Of a stretch of DNA of 23,425 bases, positions 1 to 21,700 are shown piece after piece. How positions within the stretch are numbered: the first letter of the stretch is position 1; each line of letters opens with the position of its first letter. The stretch spans positions 1-23,425 of IMG/VR virus record IMGVR_UViG_3300046804_003875; one strand, given 5' to 3'. The notes under the pieces were generated by a model. The model saw nothing but the letters and a program-made list of their open reading frames with translations, was not told the DNA's origin and did no database searches. The translations under genes were made by a program, and so were the position numbers. This stretch comes from a virus.

Positions 1-254
1 CGGTAAGAGCGGTAGGGGGGCTTGCGGTAGCCAATGGTACGCATACCTGCGAACGGATTAGGCACACGCTCAGCCGATACAATGTCAGCCTTAGCGATTG
101 CAAAGCGCTCGCCAATGTTGCGAGCGTCAGAAGTCGGGGAGAGTTTCACAATGTCACCGACATTAGCACCAAGGACAAAGCCCTCAACAGTAGAGCCATC
201 GGTAAGCGTGAAGATGTAGCGGTCACCCTCAAAGTAGATGTGTTGGTTAGTCAT
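1..254 (-). CDS. Small hypothetical protein, truncated by the window edge
   Basis: The gene reads leftward from an ATG at 254-252 and is still open at base 3, so only the first 84 residues are seen. The start is supported by an AAAGGCAGG ribosome binding site a few bases upstream and by a promoter further up at 285-314. The N-terminus (MTNQHIYFEGDRYIFTLTDG) continues into alternating short hydrophobic segments around glycines (VEGFVLGANVGDIVKLS). This is what a small SH3- or Sm-like beta barrel often looks like, but I do not recognise a family. The visible end is basic and aromatic (YRKPPYRSY). It is the most downstream visible member of a group of four small minus-strand genes, each with its own promoter, typical of phage accessory genes. 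Function unknown. Confidence 0.75.
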   Translation of the reverse strand, partial: MTNQHIYFEGDRYIFTLTDGSTVEGFVLGANVGDIVKLSPTSDARNIGERFAIAKADIVSAERVPNPFAGMRTIGYRKPPYRSY

Positions 255-284
255 TTGACTACCTGCCTTTCTTTCTATGACCCC

Positions 285-314
285 ATCTTAGCACACCCCT
301 CTGACATCGCTCAC
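285..314 (-). promoter_or_regulatory. Sigma70-like promoter of the truncated small gene
   Basis: Read on the minus strand, a -35-like GTGAGC (314-309) is followed after 18 bases by a -10 TAAGAT (290-285), about 30 bases before the ATG. The spacer begins GATGTCAGA and ends GTGTGC. It closely matches the spacer of the promoter at 860-889 (GATGTCAGA then TTGTGC), so the two were probably copied from one another. The -35 overlaps a degenerate TCTGA-N6-TCACA element at 300-315. Confidence 0.6.
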
Positions 315-353
315 AGCGGGGTCTGAATAATTATGCACAGCAACGCATAGCCG

Positions 354-383
354 AAAAACCCTTTATTTGCAAGGCTTTTAGGG
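354..383 (-). terminator. First of three tandem terminator-like hairpins
   Basis: On the minus strand a short CCTT/AAGG stem (374-371 with 363-360), inside a wider CCCT/AGGG pairing (383-380 with 362-359), runs into GTTTTT. It is the weakest stem of the three, but it shares the AAGGGTTTT ending with the next two. All three lie downstream of minus-strand genes. Confidence 0.4.
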
Positions 384-403
384 CATAGGTGAACGCGCTA
401 AAA

Positions 404-426
404 CCCTTATGGAATAAGGCTTTTTT
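404..426. terminator. Second tandem terminator-like hairpin, bidirectional
   Basis: CCTTAT (405-410) and ATAAGG (414-419) form a 6-bp stem with a 3-base loop. A T run follows on the plus strand (421-426), and GTTTTAG follows on the minus strand, so it could act in both directions. Confidence 0.6.
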
Positions 427-440
427 AGGTATGGTCTGAA

Positions 441-467
441 AAACCCTTTGTTTTAAAGGGATTTTTT
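441..467. terminator. Third tandem terminator-like hairpin, bidirectional
   Basis: CCCTTT (444-449) and AAAGGG (455-460) pair around a 5-base loop. ATTTTTT follows on the plus strand and TTTTTC on the minus strand. This is the most classical of the three. It lies downstream of the 44-aa gene and upstream of the truncated gene, both on the minus strand. Confidence 0.65.
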
Positions 468-492
468 ATGCGTAAAAACTGTATAAAGTGCA

Positions 493-505
493 TGTCCGAT
501 TTGTC
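493..505 (+). repeat. 13-bp repeat TGTCCGATTTGTC, copy 1
   Basis: First of four exact copies of TGTCCGATTTGTC, all in the same orientation and all outside or at the very end of genes (493, 554, 661, 962). On the minus strand it reads GACAAATCGGACA. Confidence 0.8.
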
Positions 506-521
506 TTAAATAATTCGTAGA

Positions 522-537
522 TGTGATGTACATCACA
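522..537. promoter_or_regulatory. Perfect CRP/GlxR-type palindrome, copy 1
   Basis: TGTGATGTACATCACA is a perfect 16-bp palindrome. It fits the CRP-family consensus TGTGA-N6-TCACA, and specifically the form TGTGANNTANNTCACA known for actinobacterial GlxR. It sits between two 13-bp repeat copies, about 160 bp downstream of the 44-aa gene. Binding by a host regulator is inferred from the motif only. Confidence 0.6.
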
Positions 538-553
538 GTGCATATGCCTTAAA

Positions 554-566
554 TGTCCGATTTGTC
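554..566 (+). repeat. 13-bp repeat TGTCCGATTTGTC, copy 2
   Basis: Exact copy of the 13-mer, 17 bases to the right of the palindrome at 522-537. It is immediately followed by a G-rich stretch (CGAGGGGCGC). Confidence 0.8.
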
Positions 567-637
567 CGAGGGGCGCTCCATAATTTCCGGGAGCTATTTT
601 AATGTAACATAATCACCGATCCTGCGCCCCGTAGGGG

Positions 638-673
638 GCGCGGAGCGGAGCGGAGCGCGATGTCCGATTTGTC
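638..673 (+). repeat. GC-rich GGAGC repeat plus 13-mer, copy A
   Basis: The 22 bases at 638-659 have the form GCGC-(GGAGC)x3-GCG and are identical to 931-952. They are followed by the third copy of TGTCCGATTTGTC (661-673). An all-GC hairpin GCGCCCC/GGGGCGC (624-630 with 635-641) overlaps the left end. The block lies directly downstream of the 44-aa gene. Confidence 0.75.
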
Positions 674-694
674 TTGTTTGGGGGACTTAGAGGA

Positions 695-829
695 TTACTC
701 CTCTTCGTCCTCCTCCCAAGTGTCAAAGAGCATTGAGAGAGTCCACTCGTCACAGTCGGCATACTCTGCCCACTCGTAGCCCTGTGCTTCGCACTTGGCT
801 TGGTAGTAAGCCTTTACCTGCTTGGTCAT
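695..829 (-). CDS. 44-residue acidic hypothetical protein
   Basis: This short gene begins MTKQVKAYYQAKCEAQ and ends in a strongly acidic tail (TWEEDEEE) before a TAA stop. The start at 829 has AAAGG seven bases upstream. An in-frame ATG 15 bases earlier would add five residues but leaves no ribosome binding site. A good promoter (860-889) lies just upstream. The predicted helix followed by an acidic tail, the small size and the private promoter resemble early phage proteins that bind host proteins or mimic DNA, but that is only inference. The gene is flanked by repeat modules on both sides. I recognise no family. Confidence 0.65.
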   Translation of the reverse strand: MTKQVKAYYQAKCEAQGYEWAEYADCDEWTLSMLFDTWEEDEEE

Positions 830-859
830 TTTGTAGCCTTTCATTCGGTTCTTAGGGTG

Positions 860-889
860 ATACTAGCACAAGGGTCTGACATCGGTCAA
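860..889 (-). promoter_or_regulatory. Sigma70-like promoter of the 44-aa gene
   Basis: On the minus strand TTGACC (889-884) and TAGTAT (865-860) are 18 bases apart, about 30 bases upstream of the start codon. The centre of the palindrome at 910-925 is about 64 bp upstream of the expected transcription start. That is near the class I position of CRP-type activators. Confidence 0.7.
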
Positions 890-909
890 GTCTTATTTAG
901 TTATTTCTT

Positions 910-925
910 TGTGACTTGCGTCACA
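910..925. promoter_or_regulatory. CRP/GlxR-type palindrome, copy 2
   Basis: TGTGACTTGCGTCACA matches TGTGA-N6-TCACA with both half-sites perfect. The same 16 bases recur at 1279-1294. It lies upstream of the promoter at 860-889, where it could act as an activator site. Confidence 0.6.
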
Positions 926-930
926 GTGGG

Positions 931-974
931 GCGCGGAGCGGAGCGGAGCGCGTGTCCGCTTTGTCCGATTTGTC
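931..974 (+). repeat. GC-rich GGAGC repeat plus 13-mer, copy B
   Basis: The 22-mer GCGC-(GGAGC)x3-GCG at 931-952 is identical to 638-659. It is followed by TGTCCGCTT (953-961), a partial copy of the 13-mer, and then by the full fourth copy of TGTCCGATTTGTC (962-974). The last two bases of that copy are part of the stop codon of the next minus-strand gene (973-975). Confidence 0.75.
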
Positions 975-1206
975 ACAAGTGCGCTTGGCACTTGTTATCC
1001 CAAAGCATCGGGGCGGTGCAACCCTCTGCATCGCACAGAGTGACAACGCGAACCCAAGCACCGAGTTTACCCTCTAGGGTAGCGGTACGCTCAAGGTAGT
1101 AGCCGTGACAGTCGCACAGCATCCACGCTGTACCATTGTCGGTAGTTCCGCAGTCAAAGGTGCGGTGCATCTGTGATGCAAGGGCGAGGGTCTTAGTCTT
1201 AGTCAT
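973..1206 (-). CDS. Small Cys-rich hypothetical protein, 77 aa
   Basis: The gene reads from an ATG at 1206 (MTKTKTLALASQMHRTF) with GAAAGGG eight bases upstream. A longer reading from 1248 is rejected because that ATG lies inside the promoter spacer. The protein has six cysteines (C19, C31, C33, C58, C63, C73), with CDCHGYY at 31-37 and CDAEGC at 58-63. This pattern suggests a small zinc-binding protein. The last codons lie in an 8-bp perfect hairpin (ACAAGTGC/GCACTTGT, 975-995) that includes part of the stop codon. It shares the MTKxxK start style, private promoter and repeat-containing flanks of the 44-aa gene. No family recognised. Confidence 0.7.
   Translation of the reverse strand: MTKTKTLALASQMHRTFDCGTTDNGTAWMLCDCHGYYLERTATLEGKLGAWVRVVTLCDAEGCTAPMLWDNKCQAHL
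975..995. other. 8-bp perfect hairpin over the 3' end of the Cys-rich gene
   Basis: ACAAGTGC and GCACTTGT pair perfectly around a 5-base loop (GCTTG). The hairpin covers the last codons and part of the stop codon. There is no T run after it in either direction, so it is not a standard intrinsic terminator. It might protect or pause the transcript. Confidence 0.5.
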
Positions 1207-1238
1207 TTTAGTTTCCCTTTCGTTTTGCTTACTCTGTA

Positions 1239-1267
1239 AGCCTAGCATATGGATTTGGATTTGTCAA
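1239..1267 (-). promoter_or_regulatory. Strong sigma70-like promoter of the Cys-rich gene
   Basis: On the minus strand a consensus -35 TTGACA (1267-1262) is followed after exactly 17 bases by TAGGCT (1244-1239), 33 bases upstream of the start codon. The palindrome at 1279-1294 lies just upstream, centred about 54 bp before the expected transcription start. Confidence 0.75.
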
Positions 1268-1278
1268 GGGGTGGGGCA

Positions 1279-1294
1279 TGTGACTTGCGTCACA
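1279..1294. promoter_or_regulatory. CRP/GlxR-type palindrome, copy 3
   Basis: TGTGACTTGCGTCACA is identical to the copy at 910-925, and the match extends one more base (G). It overlaps the stop codon of the HNH gene (1290-1292) and lies upstream of the promoter at 1239-1267. It repeats the arrangement seen at the 44-aa gene. Confidence 0.6.
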
Positions 1295-1577
1295 GCCTCC
1301 CCCTCTGTACCTTGTGGGTGTGCACAGCGTGGCAGTTGGCGCACAGTACGCGGCACTTTGCGATTTCCGCAAGGATAGTGCTAAGCGCATACCTAGCACC
1401 CTTCACCATGTCGGCAGGGTGGACAAGGTTGCCGTTACGGGTGCGGTACTTGGTGGCAGGGTCAAGGTGGTCAAACTGCAAGGCGCAGGCGTGAGCGTTG
1501 TATCCGCACGACTCGCAACCTGCGGCGGTCTTGATAGCGTCCACGATTGCGCGGACTGTTTGGGCTTTGGTGTTCAT
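1290..1577 (-). CDS. HNH endonuclease family protein
   Basis: A 95-residue protein with the HNH layout. A zinc knuckle CESC (C21, C24) comes first, then the catalytic strand FDHLDP (D36, H37), and then a second knuckle CRVLCANCHAVHT (C79, C82, H83, H86). HNH proteins are metal-dependent DNA-cutting enzymes, and small ones in phages act as homing endonucleases or in packaging. The start at 1577 is preceded by AAAGGA at good spacing; an ATG five codons earlier lacks a site. There is no extra DNA-binding domain, so it may be a free-standing nuclease or homing element. It is the first gene of the GC-richer minus-strand block, and there is no terminase beside it, which argues weakly against a packaging role. 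Confidence 0.85.
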   Translation of the reverse strand: MNTKAQTVRAIVDAIKTAAGCESCGYNAHACALQFDHLDPATKYRTRNGNLVHPADMVKGARYALSTILAEIAKCRVLCANCHAVHTHKVQRGRL

Positions 1578-1845
1578 CTTCTGTCCTTTCATTGGGCTAG
1601 GGCTTGTCCCTCGCTCACAGGACTATTGAAGCACAAGCCACCGACAAGCGCAAGCCAAAACAAGAAATAAATCCTTAGAGTTTTCTGTCAATGGGCGCAC
1701 TAATAATGCACCGCATTATGCGGCGCGGATCTGCATCATACAAATAAAAATATTATTCACATTTTTCTGAAATAGGCCCTATTTATGTAGGTGTTTATTT
1801 ATTTCGAATAAAATGACGCAACCAACCAAAATGAAAAATACAGCC
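1578..1845. other. Gene-free stretch at a base-composition boundary
   Basis: I see no gene here. Composition falls from GC-rich to AT-rich near 1660-1680. The stretch holds two short inverted repeats, CCGCAT-T-ATGCGG around 1713 and AAATAGG-C-CCTATTT at 1770-1784, which could be operator or terminator elements downstream of the Ntn-hydrolase gene. I found no convincing promoter for the HNH gene; a TTGTCG-N16-TAGTCC arrangement (1647-1620) is weak. Confidence 0.5.
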
Positions 1846-2370
1846 TCAAATGATTTCATAATCTATTGGACCTTTGCAAGTTGGGGACAATTCGCAGGCA
1901 GCTTCAACGGCGGTGGTGACGAGAAGCTTGTAGTCTTCAATTCCATCTGACTCCATGACATACATTGCTCCAAGAGCGACAGGTGCTCCAGAACCGATTG
2001 CTGTTGATTTCCATTCTGCAACACTCCAATCACTGGGGCTAATCTCAAAGATACGACCCCTACAAGCCACTAGGATGAGACTTTCATCGGCTTCTGATGT
2101 TGAGATGCCATAATTCTCTACAGCGTCTCTGAAGGCCTTTACAAAGCCTGTACGCATGAATGAGTGAAGTTCCTTTTTTGGAATCGCAGGCAAAGCGATA
2201 GATTGCAAAAGCTGTCCTCCAGACATGGATCCAGCATAGCCAATGAGATATTCTCCATTTTTATGAATCTTTGGTTTGGCTAGCTTCAAAATGACATGTC
2301 CATCGCTTGCACCTCTATCTGCAGCCATGTGAACTGTTTTTCCGTCTGTAGCAGCAACTATGCATGTCAT
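1846..2370 (-). CDS. Ntn-hydrolase, proteasome beta/HslV-like
   Basis: 174 residues beginning MTCIVAATDG. Removal of Met would expose Thr as the N-terminal nucleophile, as in HslV and proteasome beta subunits. Other hallmarks sit at the expected places: AADRGASD gives the Asp equivalent to D17 of the mature protein, KPKI gives the Lys equivalent to K33, and GYAGSMSGG is the glycine turn of the fold. The length matches HslV-type single-domain subunits, and there is no propeptide. The protein is therefore probably an active threonine protease or amidohydrolase, perhaps a self-assembling ring. No partner ATPase is visible. It has a good AAGGAG site and is the last gene of the ThyX operon, 37 bp after the preceding gene. 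The cellular target is unknown. Confidence 0.8.
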   Translation of the reverse strand: MTCIVAATDGKTVHMAADRGASDGHVILKLAKPKIHKNGEYLIGYAGSMSGGQLLQSIALPAIPKKELHSFMRTGFVKAFRDAVENYGISTSEADESLILVACRGRIFEISPSDWSVAEWKSTAIGSGAPVALGAMYVMESDGIEDYKLLVTTAVEAACELSPTCKGPIDYEII

Positions 2371-2407
2371 TTTTTTTCTCCTTATGGTTGGGGGTAGATA
2401 TTTTACA

Positions 2408-2638
2408 CTATTCTTCGTTGTCTGTCAAGTCTTCAATCGAAAGGGCGGGGGGAGGACACATAAGTTGTCCTTCTTGGTGAAGTTTCAGCAATTTCATTGC
2501 ATCATCACCCTTTCCTTGACCATCTGCGATTATCACCAACATGTCGTATATTCTTCCGAGCATGATATACAACATAGCGCCTATGTTCTCGTTCATATCC
2601 ATCATTTGATCGGCTTGATCTGAATTTTCAGTTGACAC
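2408..2638 (-). CDS. Small hypothetical protein, 76 aa, GTG start
   Basis: The gene starts at a GTG (2638-2636) that overlaps the last 11 bases of thyX, with GGATGGAG just upstream, so translation is probably coupled. The protein begins MSTENSDQADQMMDMNEN, has one hydrophobic helix (GAMLYIMLGRIYDMLVIIAD, about 20-39) and ends in an acidic tail. The helix is amphipathic and could mediate dimerisation rather than cross the membrane. It lies between thyX and the Ntn-hydrolase in one operon. I do not recognise a family. An alternative start at M12 is possible but less well placed. Confidence 0.7.
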   Translation of the reverse strand: MSTENSDQADQMMDMNENIGAMLYIMLGRIYDMLVIIADGQGKGDDAMKLLKLHQEGQLMCPPPALSIEDLTDNEE

Positions 2639-3323
2639 GGTGCTCCATCCAATATTCTATTGATTTGGGGTAGATATCTTCTATTTGAGATAATATTGCT
2701 TTTGCGTATTCCCGGATTTCAAATTGGGAGTCGTTCTTCAATCTCAAGGATAGGAAATGAAGAACAGAATTCAAGGAAGTGGTCCAACGCCACCGAACAT
2801 ACATAGAGTATGCTGGCAAAAGTAGCCTTGCCTGTTCTGGGGCTATATTTGCCGAGAGTGCCTCTCTGTAATTCGCAAGCCCTAGTTCCACCGTGCGATT
2901 CATCAGCTCTTCGAACTTCTTGCCAGTTTCTTCGTCTACTGGTCCGCCCGACCCTTGCTTCTTGTTTTCTGGCATAGAGCGCCATTGCTCGGGCTCAGGA
3001 ATGTAGAATACCTCATTTTCCGTAATGTACCTACGACTTGACTCGTTCCAGCCCATCTGATCGTCAAGATGCGTACTGGCAACCGAATGCTTGTACCACT
3101 GTCTTGCTACCATCAAGGGGGCGTAGACTTCAAAAGTCATAGCACAGTGCCTCATCGTGGAATCGTGCTTGTGTTGAATCAGAAAGCGTAGAAGTTTATC
3201 ATCACCCTCTGACATCTCAGAAACTTCTTTTTCAAAAGAAGCCCTAGCAGCATTAACAACATCAATATCAGAACCCATATTATTAATTAATTTAACATAA
3301 CCGTTGTCAAGAACCTTTTGCAT
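2628..3323 (-). CDS. thyX: Flavin-dependent thymidylate synthase ThyX (divergent)
   Basis: This 231-residue protein aligns along its length with ThyX, the FAD- and NADPH-using enzyme that methylates dUMP to dTMP with methylene-tetrahydrofolate. Visible hallmarks are NAARASF (24-30), HDSTMRH (53-59, counterpart of HETPFEH), VARQWYKH (72-79), NESSRRY (93-99) and FLSLR...EIREYA near the C-terminus. Several positions are unusual. The RHR of the signature reads KHS (78-80). An insertion of about eight residues separates AS (82-83) from NESSRRY. The arginine of the NxR motif that contacts dUMP appears to be Asn (SLNSVLHF). These fit a divergent phage branch; activity is likely but not certain. The start at 3323 has GAAAGG five bases upstream, and the gene leads a three-gene minus-strand operon. 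Confidence 0.92.
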   Translation of the reverse strand: MQKVLDNGYVKLINNMGSDIDVVNAARASFEKEVSEMSEGDDKLLRFLIQHKHDSTMRHCAMTFEVYAPLMVARQWYKHSVASTHLDDQMGWNESSRRYITENEVFYIPEPEQWRSMPENKKQGSGGPVDEETGKKFEELMNRTVELGLANYREALSANIAPEQARLLLPAYSMYVRWRWTTSLNSVLHFLSLRLKNDSQFEIREYAKAILSQIEDIYPKSIEYWMEHRVN

Positions 3324-3337
3324 AAAAACCTTTCGTG

Positions 3338-3424
3338 TATAATTTATTTAATATTATTTATATATAAAAAATAAAATATAAATAATATTTAAAATTTATA
3401 TATATTATATATATTATAAATATA
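3338..3424. promoter_or_regulatory. 87-bp pure A/T region between divergent operons
   Basis: No G or C occurs from 3338 to 3424. The stretch lies between the minus-strand thyX operon and the plus-strand holin, so it must contain promoters for one or both. It includes TATAAT on the plus strand (3338-3343) and repeated TATATATTATA words. ATTATACAC occurs in opposite orientations at its two flanks (3335-3343 minus, 3432-3440 plus). A divergent promoter, an easily melted origin element, or a binding site for an AT-binding silencer such as Lsr2 are all possible. Confidence 0.55.
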
Positions 3425-3441
3425 GAAGGAGATTATACACT

Positions 3442-3660
3442 ATGCTCAACAAAAAGACAAAAGCAGCTCTAAAGACTTTGCTCAAGACATTTGGTGCTAC
3501 AGCACTTGCTCAGTACATTGCTCTTGGACAGAATGTTTTTGAGATTGATGGAGAAGGCTGGAAGGCAATTGCAAGCTCAGGTATTGCAGCTGTTATCACA
3601 CTAGCATATGGAATGCTTGACCCCAACGATACTCGTTACGGAAGGAACTCCGCAGAGTAA
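3442..3660 (+). CDS. Holin, r1t-like
   Basis: A 72-residue membrane protein with a charged N-terminus (MLNKKTKAALKTLLKTFGAT) and two short hydrophobic segments (ATALAQYIALG, about 19-29; IASSGIAAVITLAYGML, about 43-59). It ends with DPNDTRYGR. This layout, with the small size and the DPND-RYGR tail, resembles r1t-type holins common in phages of Gram-positive bacteria. Holins form membrane lesions that release or activate the endolysin. A strong GAAGGAG site precedes the ATG. The gene follows the 87-bp A/T region and is followed 19 bases later by a second membrane protein. No endolysin is nearby in this window. Confidence 0.8.
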   Translation: MLNKKTKAALKTLLKTFGATALAQYIALGQNVFEIDGEGWKAIASSGIAAVITLAYGMLDPNDTRYGRNSAE

Positions 3661-3679
3661 TAGGATTGGTGGTTGTGGC

Positions 3680-4006
3680 ATGAATAACGCTGGATGGTTG
3701 ATGACAATTATTACGATTATTGGTGCTACAACCACCGTTTCTATTTTTGCAAGAAAATTATTTAAGATAGCAAAAAGAGTAATCCATTTCCTTGATGATT
3801 ATTTTGGAACAGAAGAAAGACCCGGATTTGACAAGGTTCCCGGAGTTGCCGAAAGAATAAAGAATATAGAGGAAAACCTTGGATATCTTTGTATAAGAAT
3901 TGATAATGTTGAGAAAGAAGTTACTCCAAATCACGGCACATCTATCAAAGATCAAATTGGAAGAATTGAAAGACGAGTGCTGAACCTTGAAGAAGAAATT
4001 ATATAA
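3680..4006 (+). CDS. Membrane-anchored coiled-coil protein (possible lysis accessory)
   Basis: The start is placed at 3680 (MNNAGWLMTIITIIGATTTV), because an upstream reading from 3608 lies inside the holin gene and lacks sense. Of 108 residues, 5-25 form one membrane segment. A cytosolic part follows with PGFDKVPGVAERIKNIEENL (about 52-71) and heptad-like repeats (RIDNVEKEV, IGRIERRVLNLEEEII). Proteins of this shape, DUF2746-like, often follow holins in actinophages. A role as second holin, holin regulator or spanin-like factor is inferred. The ribosome binding site is weak (GGTGG), which suggests coupling to the holin. Its 3' end overlaps the convergent gene by 8 bases. Confidence 0.75.
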   Translation: MNNAGWLMTIITIIGATTTVSIFARKLFKIAKRVIHFLDDYFGTEERPGFDKVPGVAERIKNIEENLGYLCIRIDNVEKEVTPNHGTSIKDQIGRIERRVLNLEEEII

Positions 4007-4214
4007 ATAAAGTTTCCCTTATAGACTCAGCCATCTTGAGTCCGGGATAAATTTTAGTATCACAGGCCAAGCACATAAAGCATGGCCTTTCTTCATTTAC
4101 CCAAGGAATCATCTTTCCATGATCCTGATCTGTGATACAAATCACAGGTATAGCGCAGTTCATCTCAACTAGCTTTTGATAAGCGTGTAGCTCTTGTATT
4201 GTCATCATAAACAT
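3999..4214 (-). CDS. Small Cys-rich hypothetical protein, 71 aa
   Basis: The gene is convergent with the coiled-coil gene, sharing 8 bases at the ends, and divergent from the reductase. It begins MFMMTIQELHAYQKLVE and contains PCFMCLACDTKIYPG, a CxxCxxC cluster (C45, C48, C51) before a GxKM turn. This is suggestive of metal binding, although a fourth ligand is not obvious (His32, Cys20 and Cys26 are candidates). A weak GGTG lies seven bases upstream of the first ATG; starts at M3 or M4 are also possible. No family recognised with confidence. Its strand is opposite to both plus-strand neighbours, marking it as a separately expressed accessory gene. Confidence 0.6.
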   Translation of the reverse strand: MFMMTIQELHAYQKLVEMNCAIPVICITDQDHGKMIPWVNEERPCFMCLACDTKIYPGLKMAESIRETLFI

Positions 4215-4227
4215 ATTTTATCACCAC

Positions 4228-4256
4228 TTGACCACTAACAAATCTTTTGATAGAAT
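4228..4256 (+). promoter_or_regulatory. Sigma70-like promoter of the ribonucleotide reductase gene
   Basis: TTGACC (4228-4233) and TAGAAT (4251-4256) are separated by exactly 17 bases. Transcription would start near 4263, so the first bases of the message form the hairpin at 4265-4280. Confidence 0.75.
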
Positions 4257-4264
4257 ATGTCTAC

Positions 4265-4287
4265 GCCACCTTATGGTGGCATTATTT
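4265..4287 (+). promoter_or_regulatory. Leader hairpin with T-rich tail before the reductase gene
   Basis: GCCACC (4265-4270), TTAT and GGTGGC (4275-4280) form a perfect 6-bp GC-rich stem-loop at the very start of the predicted transcript, followed by ATTATTTT. It could be a 5' stabiliser, an attenuator or a weak terminator. It is far too short to be a cobalamin riboswitch. Confidence 0.5.
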
Positions 4288-4311
4288 TACTAATAGATGG
4301 AGAAGATTTTT

Positions 4312-6237
4312 ATGACAGTTTCATTGCCTACTGCCTACCAGCAGGTTATTCACAAGACCAGATATGCACGATGGATGGAAGAAGAAAACCGCAGAGAGGA
4401 TTGGCACGAGACTGTTTCAAGATTCACCAATTATATCTTTGAAGCACTTGAAAAGTATAATAACTATAAAGCAGATGACACTCTAAAGGAAAGAATTGAA
4501 AACTCCATTCTTCACACAAATGTGATGCCTTCAATGAGAGCACTGATGACCGCTGGACCAGCCCTTGAAAGAGATAATACCTGCATCTATAACTGTTCAT
4601 ATCTCCCCGTTGACTCCTTGCGTTCATTCGATGAGGCAATGTATATTCTCATGTGTGGAACCGGGGTTGGATATTCTGTAGAGTCAAAGTATGTCAATCA
4701 GCTGCCAGCCGTAAATGAGCACTTTGAGAAAAGCAACACTGTAATTGTTGTTGAGGACTCAAAGGCTGGATGGGCAAAGTCACTAAGAGAACTTATTGCA
4801 CTTCTTTATCAGGGTCAGATTCCAGACTGGGACTTGACAAAAGTTAGACCAGCAGGTGCAAGATTAAAGACATTCGGTGGTCGTGCATCTGGTCCAGAGC
4901 CATTGAATAGATTGTTTAAGTTCACCATTTCAACCATTCGTAATGCTGCTGGAAGAAAATTAACTCCAATTGAGGCTCACGACATTATGTGCAAGATTGC
5001 AGAAGTTGTTGTTGTCGGTGGTGTCCGTAGAAGCGCAATGATTTCACTATCAGACCTAGAGGATAGAAACATGGCTGCTGCAAAGTCTGGATCTTGGTGG
5101 GAATACAACAGCCAGAGAGCATTGGCAAACAATTCTGCAACATATGAAACCAAGCCAACAATGGAGGTATTCATGGCAGAGTGGAAATCACTTTATGATT
5201 CTAAGTCTGGCGAGCGTGGAATTTTCTCAAGAGATGCAGCTAAAAAAGTTGCTGCAAAAAATGGAAGAAGAGAAGCAGACCACGAGTTTGGAACCAATCC
5301 ATGCTCTGAAATTATCCTCAGACCATTTGAATTCTGCAACTTGACAGAAGTCGTAGTAAAAGAAGACGACACACTTGAGACCCTTAAAGAAAAAGTTGAA
5401 CTTGCAACCATTCTTGGAACATTCCAGTCAACATTCACAAGATTCAAGTATTTGAGAAAGCAGTGGCAGAATAACTGTGAAGAGGAAAGACTTCTTGGTG
5501 TTTCTCTTACAGGTCAGATGGGACACTCAGTTCTCAATGGAAAAGAAGGTCTTGGAAAACTTATCGTCTGGCTAGAAGAACTTAGAAAGCATGCAGTTAA
5601 GGTAAATAAGAAGTATGCAGATATTCTTGGAATTAAGCAGGCTGCTGCAATTACCTGCGTTAAGCCATCTGGAACTGTTTCTCAGTTGGTTAACTGTTCA
5701 TCTGGAATGCACACTTGGCACAGCGAGTTCTACGCAAGAACCATTCGTGCAGATGTCAAAGATCCAGTAACAGACTTCCTGAAGGATATGGGCATCAAGA
5801 ATGAGCCAGACCTCATGAAGCCAAACGACACTGCAGTATTCACATTTCCCATTAAGGCTCCAAAAGATGCTCTAACAAGAGAAGACTTAACTGCAATTGA
5901 GCACCTTGAGCTCTGGCTGACATACCAAAGATATTGGACAGAGCATAAGCCATCAATTACAATTTCTGTCAGAGAGCACGAATGGATGGCCGTAGGTGCT
6001 TGGGTTTATGAGCACATTGATGAACTTTCTGGAATTTCATTCTTGCCATATTCAGACCATGTTTATCAGCAGGCTCCATATCAGGAGATTAATGAGAGCG
6101 AATACCTGCAGCTATTGAAGGAGACCCCAGAAACATTAGACTGGAACTGGTTGCAAAATTATGAGGCATCCGACAACACAACAGGAACTCAGGAACTTGC
6201 TTGTGTTGCTGGAGTTTGCGACATAGTTGAGGTATAA
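4312..6237 (+). CDS. nrdJ: Adenosylcobalamin-dependent (class II) ribonucleotide reductase, monomeric type
   Basis: The enzyme reduces ribonucleotides to deoxyribonucleotides using adenosylcobalamin. I start at 4312 because GGAGAAG lies at good distance; an ATG at 4297 has no site. In the 641-residue protein the cysteines match the Lactobacillus-type monomeric enzyme. NCSY (C95) is the first active-site Cys, NPCSEI (C331) is the radical Cys with its Glu partner E333, and FCNLTE (C342) is the second active-site Cys, with the same 11-residue spacing as C408 to C419. The C-terminal pair CVAGVC (C631, C636) serves re-reduction. GVGYS and KPSGTVSQL are family motifs. It is shorter than the usual 700-plus residues. 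No intein or intron interrupts it, although phage reductases often carry them. Substrate level (NTP or NDP) cannot be told. Confidence 0.95.
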   Translation: MTVSLPTAYQQVIHKTRYARWMEEENRREDWHETVSRFTNYIFEALEKYNNYKADDTLKERIENSILHTNVMPSMRALMTAGPALERDNTCIYNCSYLPVDSLRSFDEAMYILMCGTGVGYSVESKYVNQLPAVNEHFEKSNTVIVVEDSKAGWAKSLRELIALLYQGQIPDWDLTKVRPAGARLKTFGGRASGPEPLNRLFKFTISTIRNAAGRKLTPIEAHDIMCKIAEVVVVGGVRRSAMISLSDLEDRNMAAAKSGSWWEYNSQRALANNSATYETKPTMEVFMAEWKSLYDSKSGERGIFSRDAAKKVAAKNGRREADHEFGTNPCSEIILRPFEFCNLTEVVVKEDDTLETLKEKVELATILGTFQSTFTRFKYLRKQWQNNCEEERLLGVSLTGQMGHSVLNGKEGLGKLIVWLEELRKHAVKVNKKYADILGIKQAAAITCVKPSGTVSQLVNCSSGMHTWHSEFYARTIRADVKDPVTDFLKDMGIKNEPDLMKPNDTAVFTFPIKAPKDALTREDLTAIEHLELWLTYQRYWTEHKPSITISVREHEWMAVGAWVYEHIDELSGISFLPYSDHVYQQAPYQEINESEYLQLLKETPETLDWNWLQNYEASDNTTGTQELACVAGVCDIVEV

Positions 6238-6238
6238 T
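6233..6238 (+). promoter_or_regulatory. -10 box for a leaderless LamG gene
   Basis: A perfect TATAAT overlaps the stop codon of the reductase (6235-6237) and ends exactly seven bases before the ATG at 6246. There is no ribosome binding site in those seven bases. This spacing would place the transcription start at or next to the ATG. No good -35 is seen. Confidence 0.55.
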
Positions 6239-6245
6239 AAAGTGT

Positions 6246-9200
6246 ATGTCTATTTATAAATATTCCGTGCAAAGAGATGCCCCATATGTTGTTTATACTT
6301 TAAACACTCCTGCGTCCAATGGTCAGTTTTTACCATTTTCAACTTTTACAACGCAGACGGCATCAGTAGTTGACGGAAGCTTATCATTTAGCACATCCAA
6401 TACGCTTGCATATTATCAATACCCGTTAGTTGCTGGAAATAATATATCGTCATATATTTCCCCATCGTCTCCAAACAATAAGATAAAAGTTCCGGGATTG
6501 AAGTTTTTCAGCAGAGCGAAAAAAGATAGATCGTATTCTGTAGAATTTTGGATGAGACATTTTGGAAATGATTATACGACTCCAAAGCAAATAGTTTCTC
6601 TTGGAAATTCTGCATCTGGAGGTCTTTGGATAGACCAGCAATCTCTCGTATACATTTACGGAGATTCCCCAACAGCATCAAATAGAGCAGTAGTGTCAAT
6701 GCCAATTGATAAATTTGATGAACCTATGCATATTGTTATGGGGCATAGCAAAGGACAAATACAGTTAATTGTCAATGGAAATAGAGAAATCACTGAATTC
6801 GATGATTCACAAACGATAAACTCATCCTTTTCGGAAGAATCAATTTACATAAACCCATATGTTGAAAACAATGACTATATTTATTTTGGCGGATTGCAGA
6901 ATATGGAGATATCATGCATAGCCATGTATTTGTATAATATAGCGGCAACACCAGCTGCAGTTGTTAGGCATTATGTTTATGGGCAGGGATATACTGTAAA
7001 TGAATCAAACTTTAAATCTAGGGGTGGATTCAATTACTCCATGCATATCGATGAAAAGGATGTATTCAATAATATAAGCATAGGCTCAGCAGACTCTTGG
7101 AAGAATTTCAATTCCACAAGAAAAGATGCATCACAAAGCAACGACTTTAATGCAATATATGTTAATAACAGAGGGTTCCTTACATTAATTCCAGATATTT
7201 TCAGCGAGAATGTTGTTATTGATGATGAGAACTTTATAAAAAACATTTATCCAACATCAGTTCTTCATAGTGCAAGTGGGTACGCCTTGCAAAAAGGGAT
7301 TTATATAGAATTTGAAAATATTCAAGACTACATTAATACAATTGGCGTAGATTATGGAATTGAAGCATCATTAATGCTTACATCATCTGCTGCATCAGTT
7401 GGATCAATTGCTTCAACAATAGCAGAAATAAGCGCACCAAACCTAGGATCTCAAAAACTTTGGATCTATCAAGAAAGAGTTAATGCTGGAAGCAACAGGA
7501 CAAAATATCAGATTTATAACACTATCGGAACACTTACAGCAAGCGGATTTATTGGAGCTTCTGTTACAACTGGATCTGCATTTTCTATTGGCTTTGGAAT
7601 AAAAAATAGAACATATACGCTATATCAAAAACTTGGAGCAGTAACTGCATCAGTTGAGTTCAATCTTAACGACTCAAGATATATAGACCTTCAAGATGCA
7701 ACAAACATTAGATTCGGCTCTAGATCAACTTATTCGGGCGGAACTGAGTACAAAGATATATCAGACGACTATTCTGCGTATCCAGCCGTGTATCTATCTT
7801 CAATTAAGATTGGCGACCTGACTGATATTTCTACTGGCACAAATATTAAATATTATAAAAACTATAGATATGACTACACATCGGATGAATTTAAGACCGG
7901 CATATACAACGCATCGATATCTTATATTTTCCCAGCAAAACTTTTTGCAAAAGAAATAAATGACAATTCTATTATTTATCCGAATAGAATAGATGTTGGA
8001 TATCCAAATCAGGAAAATAATGCAAGCGCAGTAAGTTCTGTAAAAACTGTAGTTAGCAGATTCTACAATAACTCACTTACATCTAGTTCCAGAATTTATT
8101 CATCAAATGATACATTCATCCAGCCAACCACACTGACTAATAGCACAATAAGTGCCTGTGCAGTAACGATATCTTTTGTTTTTAACACTGACGATGTATT
8201 AAGAAAAAATCCAGCAGTTAGATATTTGAATATTTTCAGCATGGCAAATAATAATATTTCACTGCAAAATTCTGCACCTCCAATAGAACTTAACTATCTT
8301 TCTACATCATCTGTCACAACGCCAGCAAAAATTAAAACACCCTTTATCAATAATTCTGCTGCAAATGGAGGTCTCCTAATTGGAGATTCTGGATACTTTG
8401 GAAAAATTGACACAACATCAATTCCAGTGGAAAATATCAAAACAATATCATTTTTTGTAAAATCTGCATCTGCATATAGCTCAACAATATTGCAGATATC
8501 TGGAAGTACAGTATTTTCTTATACTAATCAGGGTGCTTCTGCCACTGTAAACTTTTCAGTTGCAAACTCAATTTATTGTAATGGAGCATCTGTAACACTT
8601 TCTGGTGCATCATTCACAATATCACCAACAGCTTGGAATAGATATGACATAGTTTTAACAAACCCAATTTCATCTGGAGCCTCAATAATAATTGGAGCAC
8701 AGACTGGGGCAAACAACAGATTCTACATTGATGAGCTTGGATTATTCAACAGACAATTTACTGCAGACGATGCAGCATCTTTATATAATTTATATCGTGG
8801 CGGATCATCTTCAGCAACAATATCAATAAAAGATGGTGGCATAGGAAAGAATGTTAGCCTATCCCTTACATATGGAGCATCTTCAGAAAGTGCAAGTTAT
8901 GCTGCATTAAATATTTTAGATAAAGAAATGTCAGCATCGTATGTAACATGGTCAGATAAGCTACAACTCTTCACAAAAGAGTCTTTAACATTTATTGATC
9001 TGATTAAAACAACAACAAGCTCCTTGACGCAAAACGCTGAGGGCGGTTTGATATCTAAGTCATTGCAGCAGGCAGAACAGTATGTTGACGGCGTGTTGAT
9101 GGAGCATGGAGATAAAGTTCTTGTTTTCAATGGAACAGCCTGTGCGGTGTATACAGCATCGGTAACAACCAATTCTTTCAAAATTTATTCAGCCTCACCA

Positions 9201-18748: not shown

Positions 18749-21700
18749 TGGCTCAAATCAATACAGTATTTAGATACGAAGGTGATTTTGGGCCGTTAAA
18801 GGCTCAGATTAAATCTCTTTCCGGGGACATCTCTGCTCTAAATGCACAATTTAAGTCATTTGAAACAATTGCCACAAAAGCAATGTATGGCGCTGCCAAA
18901 TCATTTAGAGGTGATGTAAGTCACATTGCTGGATATAAAACATCTGTCGTAGACCTGACAAGCGTACTTGATAAATTCGGTACAGCAATCACAAGACAAA
19001 AACTTTCTTTAAGAGAATATGCAAAAGAAGCTGCAAATGCATTTAAATCAACCAGTAGCACAAGGCTTCTGGCTGAAAGAGAAGTTGCAAGAATGCAGTC
19101 TTCCCTTATTCAGTTTGGCGCATCAACTGGAAAGGGAATGCTTGTAACACCGCTGGCAAATAATATGTCTGACTTGGCAACAAGAACTGCCATAGCAAGA
19201 AAACAGTTTGATATATTCAATACACTAGTTCAAGATGGCGCTACAAAATTAATTAACTTTGGTAAGAATACTCAGTGGGCTGGTCGCCAACTTATGGTTG
19301 GTCTTACTCTGCCTATGGCTATATTTGGTCAGACCCTCGTAAAATCTTTCACAGACGCAGAAACAGAGCTAACAAGATTTGCAAAGGTATATGGATCAGA
19401 CCTAGTAAATCAAAGCTATGAAGCAACAGAGCAAATGAAGGGGCAAGTTAAGGCACTTTCTAGAAGTATTGCAGAAGAATGGGGAGTAGCTGTCAAGCAA
19501 ACAAATGCACTGGCAGCAGATCTGGCAGCAGCAGGTTATGAAGGTCAAAGACTCCTTGACATGACTTATCAAACATCAAGATTGGCAATTCTTGGAGAAG
19601 TTGATAGACAAGATGCAATGAAGGCAACTCTATCATTACAGAATGCCTTTAACATGAGCACACAACAACTGTCTGATTCAATTAACTTCTTAAACTCTGT
19701 TGAAAACCAAACATCAACATCTCTTCAGGATCTTATTACCGCAATTCCTAGAACTGGTCCAATTATTAACGCATTGGGCGGAGATGTAAAAGACTTATCC
19801 GTACTTCTTGTAGCAATGAAAGAGGGTGGAGTTTCTGCAGCAGAAGGTGCAAACGCACTAAAATCTGGACTTGCTTCTCTAATCAACCCAACACAAAAGG
19901 CAATTGATCTAGCAAAACAATACGGTGTTGACCTAAAGGGAATTGTGGAAGGCACAAGAGGCGAACTTATGCCAACTGTCATAGGATTTCAGGACGCACT
20001 GAAAAACCTAGATGAGTTTGCTAGAGCCAAAGTTATAGAACAAATCTTTGGAAAGTATCAGTTTGCAAGAATCTCAGCGCTCTTTGACAACTTAAATCAG
20101 CAAGGATCTCAGACAAAGAAAGTCCTTGACTTAGCAAAGATGTCAACTACTGATCTTGCAAAACAGGCATACCGAGAAATGAGAATCTTAACAGAATCTA
20201 TCCCGAATAGACTGAAGAGAGCCACCGAAACACTAAAGGCAGAACTTCTACCACTTGGAGCCTCCATTGCAGAAACAGTTATTCCAATAATTGTTAAAAT
20301 TGCAGATGCAGTAAAAGGCGTTATGGAGTTCCTTGATAAACTTCCAAAGCCATTAAAAACATTCCTTAAGTTTTCTGCAGTAGTGGTTGCATTGCTTGGA
20401 CCAATTATTCAGCTTGTAGGTTTGTTTGGAAACTTTGCTGGAAATGTTATCAAGCTTACAATGAACATGGTGAATCTTGGAAGAGCCATGCTTGGCATAA
20501 AAACTGAAAGATTTAAACTCCTATCTGACGATGAACTTGCTGCAACAAAATCAACACAAACTTTGACAACATCGTTCCTTAATCAAGAGCAGTCGCTTAA
20601 CATGTTAAATACTGCACTTAATACATATTTGGTTAGACTAAGAGAAATAAGAGCCACTCAACCCGGATTGTTTATACCAACCGCAGGTGGTGCAGGGCCA
20701 ATGAGAGGGGCTAGGAGAGCCGATGGAGGCCCCATATACGGCCCCGGAGGTCCAACTGGAGATAAAATACCAGCAATGTTGTCTGATGGCGAATATGTCA
20801 TTAAAGCATCATCTGTGAATAAATACGGTCTTGGATTTATGGATAAAATAAATGCTGGAAAATTTGCAATGGGTGGAATTGTAAAAAAATTCCAAAATGG
20901 TGGTGCTGCAGCAACTGAAAAAACACACATTGCGGCATCAACAGGATTAATATCACCAACTCAAGCACAAGCAATGATAGCACAAAATACTGGTAGAGTT
21001 CGTGCAAGCGCATTAAATGCAATTGGAACAGCACTATTTGTTCAAGAAAAAGCAGCAGAAAAAGGCCTTGCCAATTTCACAGTACATGTAGAATTATTAA
21101 ATAATCTTGTTGTTAACCTATCTAGAAAACTTAATCAAAATTTAAAAGACTCAACAGTTGCCTTAGATAGATTTGTATCAGAATTTTCATCTTCAACAAA
21201 TAAATGGTTGCCAGCGCTTTCTATGGCAAAAATAAAAACAGATGAGTTTGCAGATAAAGGGTCAAAATTATCATTAGCATTAGCTGCTTATGAAAAGAAA
21301 ATTATTGAAAATCTTCAGGCAACTGGCAAGAGGATAATTGGAGATCAAGATGTTTATGCGGCACAATCTGCAGCGCAAAAACAAGTAACAGCAGCACAAA
21401 GAAAACTTTTACAGCCAATATTTAATTTGGCAAATGAACTTGAAAGCTTTAGAATATCAACAGATTTAACAAAACAGCAGTTAAGAGAACTAGGTTTTGA
21501 GCTTAGAAAGAATAAAACAACTGGACTAGACGAGAAAGTTGTTAGAGGTCTTAATGGATCATTTGTTGACTTGGCGCATGCAACAAGAACACTAACTGCA
21601 AAATCATACCAAAGTTCATCAGAGCAAGAGGCTTTAAAGGTTGCTACACAAAAACTAATTGAGGCAAGATCATTGGCGACAATTAATGAAAGAGAAGCTG

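Follow-up and report, generated by a model that had tools for sequence, protein, structure and literature searches.

Perfect copies of the palindrome TGTGA-N6-TCACA occur among the small genes in the accessory arm of an uncultured phage. An earlier note on this DNA proposed that the copies wire these genes to the cAMP-CRP/GlxR regulator of the host, such that expression follows host carbon status, and named a phage-encoded regulator as the other possibility. The question raised by this locus is which protein, if any, reads the sites, and to what effect. The stretch analysed, referred to as the window, is the virus record IMGVR_UViG_3300046804_003875 at its full length of 23,425 bases. Comparison of the window with other phage loci favours, with a probability of roughly 0.7, a putative class-I-like activation in which the host's own CRP/GlxR acts on phage promoters, with the sites at 910 and 1279 included.

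The phage and its accessory arm

Among the window genes are those for ThyX and, by PHROGs assignment, for a portal protein, a ribonucleotide reductase and a virion structural protein with relatives that carry a capsid annotation. In a named phage collection, Streptomyces phages account for 127 of 171, 127 of 259 and 127 of 164 records matching these window genes, and the four matching Streptomyces phage records that were opened all belong to the family Stanwilliamsviridae. Because most named-phage matches are Streptomyces phages, the host is probably an actinobacterium. When the window itself was compared with the phage collection, only a 257-base stretch of the ribonucleotide reductase was found among the matches listed.

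Window positions 1–1660 are occupied by small genes on the minus strand. The G+C content of the accessory arm (window 1–2000) is 49–50%, and that of the rest of the window is 33–46%. An identical 25-base repeat, GGGGCGCGGAGCGGAGCGGAGCGCG, is present at 635–659 and 928–952, in each case past the 3′ end of a minus-strand gene. Beyond the small genes, a proteasome/HslV-like Ntn-hydrolase gene (PHROG 1040) spans 1846–2370, with a Pfam score of 21.3 bits that falls just below the cut-off.

Palindromes and promoters in the window

A scan of the window for TGTGA-N6-TCACA recovered the perfect sites at 522, 910 and 1279 exactly where the earlier note had placed them, and a fourth at 4131 that had been missed (Table 1). 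Three of the four fall outside genes in the feature table. Another contig from this phage (99.98–99.99% identical) reaches 4,786 bases further left of the window, and this extension contains a fifth perfect palindrome, at −1433. The blocks around 522 and −1433 are alike, and sites 910 and 1279 have 17 identical bases in common (TGTGACTTGCGTCACAG). The reversed pattern, used as a control, does not occur in the window. Matches with up to two mismatches numbered 15, compared with a mean of 15.67 in shuffled sequence, and 15 or more were obtained in 57 of 100 shuffles; as such matches are at chance level, only the perfect sites stand out.

Copies with one mismatch are found at 300 and at 18910–18925. 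The first of these had been listed as a further version of the motif; the copy is present, but it overlaps the core of a repeated promoter element, and it was dropped as a CRP site for that reason. It is probably a part of this element, and a separate site at the same position is unlikely. The perfect palindrome at 4131 is probably a chance match, and for the matches at 4131 and 18910 an origin by chance or from a duplicated block is still likely. Both 4131 and 300 are unlikely to be sites of the CRP/GlxR-wiring kind.

Table 1. Palindromes, promoters, boxes and genes in the window.
Feature	Position	Strand	Remarks
One-mismatch match	300..315	minus	Overlaps promoter core of gene 3–254 (TGTCAG 306–301)
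Perfect palindrome	522..537	none	TGTCCG boxes flanking; promoter core not found beside it; half-sites kept in relative
TGTCCGA box	554..560	plus	16 bp past palindrome 522; other boxes at 493, 563, 661, 953 and 962
Small gene downstream of site 910	695..844	minus	49 aa; no Pfam or PHROGs family match
Promoter of gene 695–844	853..889	minus	−35 TTGACC 889–884, TGTCAG 881–876, −10 TAGTAT 865–860; start ~853, inferred from promoter logo
Perfect palindrome	910..925	minus	36 bp ahead of promoter core; centre ~−64.5; 36 is the main distance peak
Small gene downstream of site 1279	973..1248	minus	91 aa (77 aa from ATG at 1206); no family match
Promoter of gene 973–1248	1232..1267	minus	−35 TTGACA 1267–1262, −10 TAGGCT 1244–1239; inferred start ~1232
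Perfect palindrome	1279..1294	minus	Equivalent of 26 bp ahead of promoter; centre ~−54.5
Fourth perfect palindrome	4131..4146	none	Within ORF 3999–4214; not conserved in relative

On the minus strand, site 910 is followed by TTGACC-18-TAGTAT and site 1279 by TTGACA-17-TAGGCT. For these sigma70-like promoters the earlier note had estimated about 64 and 54 bp from the palindrome centre to the expected transcription start. The centres at about −64.5 and −54.5, which depend on a start taken from the promoter logo, come close to that estimate. The promoter behind 1279 does not contain the TGTCAG motif, so its distance was counted by hand from the −10 element. Sites 910 and 1279 occupy a helically phased position upstream of −35; 522 and 4131 do not. 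The left arm, from −4568 to 881, contains 14 minus-strand copies of the promoter core TGTCAG-N6..8-TGnTA or close variants of it, and a perfect palindrome lies ahead of one of the 14 (the core at 881). The window at ~1690–1775 contains TGGGCGCACTA and CATCATACAAATAAAAAT...TTCACATTTTT, which on visual inspection look similar to a block adjoining palindromes in other phages (e.g. L317 and L299).

A promoter family with phased palindromes

A logo of 1,045 unique cores from the phage loci fetched is composed of a weak −35 TTGAAA, an A run, the spacer TGTCAGACC and an extended −10 TGnTAnnnT, and it places the likely start at an A that lies 28 bases past the first T of TGTCAG. A conserved TGTCAGACC motif in the spacer between −35 and −10 is unusual, and the promoter family is present in more than 100 other phage stretches. 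In genome contigs, the core was detected in 42 scattered stretches against an estimated chance expectation of ~30, with no clear host. L418 (CAIPBJ010000120.1), a contig of 3.8 kb binned with Methylophilaceae, resembles a phage of this group and is perhaps mis-binned.

At least 120 stretches were fetched by promoter sequence alone, and 119 of them were used (L125 was left out). Among the matches listed, these 119 loci contain 193 copies of TGTGA-N6-TCACA, compared with 0–7 copies for each spacer length of 0–5 or 7–15 and with 48 for the runner-up among 1,024 half-sites at N6, although these counts are not independent because the phage loci are related to one another. No palindrome was found in 79 loci fetched by capsid similarity (79 of 80 used; the self locus L031 was left out), nor in four Streptomyces phage relatives totalling 512 kb. 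When 40 whole phage contigs were hand-picked from the promoter set, 26 had the palindrome and 14 did not, and the reversed motif was present in none of the 40.

The position of the palindromes relative to the promoters follows the turn of the DNA helix. For the promoter-set loci among the matches listed, a core lies 9–80 bp downstream, on either strand, of 71 of the 142 unique sites and is missing from that range for the remaining 71; random placement gave a mean of 7.1 and a maximum of 16 such sites in 1,000 draws. The palindrome–core distances in these loci cluster at 26, 36, 46 and 56–57 bp, with a few at 67–73 bp, and their best period is 10.3 bp (R = 0.81). Counted from the promoters, a perfect palindrome stands within 100 bp upstream of 74 of 675 cores and is missing from this interval for 601.

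A replicate scan for palindromes 14–44 bp before TGTCAGACC yielded at least 74 new loci and at least 94 unique site–core pairs. Pooled, the 94 pairs among the matches listed gave R = 0.41 at 10.3 bp. The pairs were then divided by the presence of a TGTCCG box, a split chosen post hoc once the data had been seen. Among the matches listed, the 64 pairs without a box have peaks at 46 bp (22 pairs) and 36 bp (19 pairs) with R = 0.86, and the 30 pairs with a box lie mostly at 41–42 bp. In the latter, again among the matches listed, the box starts 32–33 bp before the core in 26 of 30 pairs and 23 bp before it in 4 of 30.

The palindrome is also spaced from the box itself. From a set of at least 120 stretches fetched by palindrome and TGTCCGA together, 80 of 120 were used, and the gaps in these 80 stretches, among those listed, peak at 6, 16 and 26 bp (13, 18 and 13 of 97 rows). 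This spacing suggests a second DNA-bound partner. TGTCCG boxes, often in the form TGTCCGATTTGTC, occur near palindromes and terminator-like hairpins in the window, in the related locus L486 and in many other loci.

Conservation and genome layout in related phages

Each palindrome, together with 100 bp on either side, was compared to 248 loci that had been fetched by capsid, promoter or TGTCCGATTTGTCTT, blind to the palindrome. Alignments with 60–90% flank identity were kept, giving 331 alignments that cover 90 of 146 sites. An earlier set of 979 alignments took in subjects fetched by palindrome; the set of 331 leaves out those subjects as well as pieces of the phage contig G032, L486 and the window. 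Identity over the 331 alignments was 92% in the half-sites, 60% in the inner bases and 73% in the near flanks. Half-sites were better kept than near flanks in 81 of 90 sites, and all ten half-site bases were retained in 220 of 331 alignments (224 of 335 once seven further loci and the window were added).

Individual sites of this phage were followed in L486 (contig G026; 81% identical over window 1848–6446), which was chosen as the closest relative and whose two palindromes were known beforehand. L486 keeps 10/10 half-site bases at both −1433 and 522, along with 1/6 and 2/6 of the inner bases, respectively. Locus L268 keeps 10/10 and 8/10 half-site bases against −1433, and 9/10 against 522. 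Conservation in related phages, which the earlier note had put forward as a check, is thus seen in the half-sites at large and at 522 and −1433, but not throughout: site 4131 retains 6/10 half-site bases in the relative, and L486 retains the promoter that follows 910 but lacks its palindrome. Site 522, which had further been read as the actinobacterial GlxR form, has conserved half-sites but no recognised promoter core beside it.

The layout of a larger genome could be viewed in G032, a contig of 112,011 bases whose ends are repeated over 3,269 bases, leaving a unit of 108,742. Its proteins are 55% (portal), 63% (ribonucleotide reductase) and 35% (capsid) identical to those of the window, and a 20-kb piece of it has no near matches in the phage collection. 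All eight G032 palindromes lie within ~7.4 kb, and 13 strict cores lie within ~11.4 kb of the same arm; five of the eight palindromes are 36, 45, 46 or 56 bp ahead of a core. Random spread through coding regions across the genome had been named as evidence against regulatory sites. The confinement of the palindromes to one arm of G032 supports a regulatory system. Three of the eight lie clear of the loosely called ORFs of this contig, and the other five overlap small ORFs.

Candidate regulator and candidate hosts

A protein of the CRP type was sought in both the phages and their possible hosts. Of 40 phage contigs, few of which are known to be complete, 0 encode the CRP helix-turn-helix domain (PF13545), and the search found the cyclic nucleotide-binding domain (PF00027) in 0 of 19, most of them possibly fragments; on these counts, a phage CRP homologue was dropped as a candidate. 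Within one actinobacterial class, 318 of 394 genomes contain at least one perfect site. From these 394, 43 genomes of 1.0–1.6 Mb were hand-picked as candidate hosts. A CRP helix-turn-helix protein is encoded in 42 of the 43, and ELAQLVGASRETVNK is present in 30 of 30 such proteins that were read. As CRP-type domains were found in none of the phage contigs and a CRP helix-turn-helix protein in 42 of 43 genomes, host CRP/GlxR is the best candidate. Of the two regulators considered in the earlier note, the host protein is accordingly favoured over a phage CRP.

The candidate genomes themselves are hardly enriched in the site. A perfect palindrome occurs in 7 of the 43, once in each, and one-mismatch sites sum to 733, compared with 679 matches to the reversed pattern used as control. 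Class III adenylate cyclase was detected in 0 of 43 by a search that found it in C. glutamicum as a control. The previously suggested dependence on host carbon status, like control by cAMP, is therefore unsupported by these data. The presence of CRP in 42 of these genomes, and of class III adenylate cyclase in none, raises the possibility of a CRP that works without cAMP.

Attempts to name the host more directly gave little resolution. A capsid-profile search in genome contigs returned 93 stretches that matched a pattern, of which 0 encoded a relative. A phage tRNA compared with 48 genomes had matches in 40, at 75–88% identity.

Proposed mechanism and alternative explanations

It is proposed that a host protein of the CRP/GlxR family would bind the palindromes at whole-turn distances from the start, with centres at about −54.5, −64.5, −74.5 and −84.5. 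Its targets would be phage sigma70-type promoters of the family described above, and the bound protein, sitting on the side of the DNA where RNA polymerase sits, would aid the enzyme in the manner of class I activation. Sites 910 and 1279 of the window would serve two small genes to which no function is assigned. A second class of promoter, seen in other phages, has the TGTCCG box between palindrome and core. Comparison across loci supports such wiring for 910 and 1279, which belong to a wide system; the protein is probably the host's CRP/GlxR, its role probably activating and the host probably an actinobacterium. The earlier proposal that small genes are wired to CRP/GlxR gains from promoter-phased and conserved sites, but it does not extend readily to 522, which has no recognised promoter, and enrichment of the site is not seen in the small actinobacterial genomes.

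In class I CRP-dependent promoters of E. coli, CRP sites are centred at −61.5, −71.5, −82.5 and −92.5. The phage sites resemble these in moving by about one helical turn at a time upstream of −35. Their centres, given the inferred start, lie ~3 bp further upstream, and the phage promoters differ in having the TGTCAGACC spacer motif. A more elaborate form of the proposal, advanced only tentatively, is a two-part code, common to a large set of open-water phages, in which promoter output is set jointly by host CRP/GlxR, perhaps cAMP-free, and by a second factor bound at the TGTCCG box. The hosts in this code would be streamlined and lack class III adenylate cyclase, and the sites would be far denser in the phages than in these candidate hosts.

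Other proteins and other effects might account for the same sites. A phage-encoded regulator from outside the CRP family could bind the palindrome and time the accessory genes, which would suit the enrichment of the site in phages and not in the 43 small actinobacterial genomes. Of the 40 phage contigs, 15 encode WhiB-like regulators, and the unclassified genes make up roughly a third or more of each phage. TGTGA-N6-TCACA with few A at position 6, however, is the consensus published for GlxR in the regulon description of PMC7999487, and the domain searches, which covered CRP-type families, found no CRP helix-turn-helix in 40 and no cyclic nucleotide-binding domain in 19 phage contigs; this explanation is considered unlikely. 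Alternatively, the host protein may bind but repress, holding the accessory genes off until host physiology changes. Precedent exists in phage T1, where the relevant passages of PMC6737242 describe repression of the pir, dam and recE promoters by cAMP-CRP, and some of the present sites have no nearby core. Nevertheless, at its main distances the palindrome sits upstream of −35 in steps of 10.3 bp, as an activator that contacts polymerase requires, and a steric repressor would be expected to overlap the core more often. Repression is thus rather improbable.

Two further explanations carry very little weight. Operators of the redox repressor Rex also fit TGTGA-N6-TCACA, with identical outer half-sites, but their position 6 is A and their position 11 is T. 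In the phages, A occupies position 6 in only 4% of 139 unique sites (both strands counted), and by comparison with this Rex motif the Rex reading is disfavoured to the point of being highly implausible. The palindromes could instead be chance occurrences or copies spread by duplication of intergenic blocks, a view that draws on the 17-base identity of 910 and 1279, the similar blocks at 522 and −1433 and the lack of conservation at 4131. It is at odds with half-sites that are kept while inner bases change, and with enrichment and phasing over many loci. For the site set as a whole this explanation is refuted.

Relation to known systems

Activation of phage promoters by host CRP/GlxR, as preferred here, has its closest principle in the wiring of phages to the host regulator CtrA. 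As set out in the portions of PMC9437464 used here, CtrA-wired phages of Alphaproteobacteria include phiCbK-like phages, have measured binding and reporter effects, and arose in unrelated phages. In both systems, sites for a host master regulator are dense in one part of the genome that is rich in genes of unknown function. The regulator and hosts differ, and the sites described here were identified by sequence comparison; helical phasing and a second box are features of the present phages and absent from those portions of the CtrA phage description (PMC9437464). Like phage T1, these phages have promoters under host CRP, here putatively; the T1 case in the same passages of PMC6737242 involves repression of few promoters in E. 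coli, whereas the many phased upstream sites here suggest activation.

The GlxR regulon of Corynebacterium glutamicum has the consensus TGTGA-N6-TCACA, and activation of a promoter has been shown (PMC7999487, regulon description). That regulon consists of host genes, in contrast with the phage promoters considered here, although the consensus is identical. Phages of 'Ca. Nanopelagicales' are freshwater actinophages with whiB and may be ecological kin; neither CRP-type sites nor the promoter family is reported in that study (PMC10202952). The terms CRP, GlxR and cAMP do not occur in the main text of PMC8612146. No report of this system was recognised in the open-access literature that was searched.

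The location of CRP-type sites at whole helix turns before small accessory genes suggests that a host switch runs part of the phage programme. If this is true, a wide group of uncultured phages would run part of its gene programme through a global regulator of the host, by a spacing rule that can be read from the DNA. Control of accessory genes in these phages would then become testable, with a possible clue to host range, and the principle known from the CtrA phages would be extended to regulators of the CRP type.
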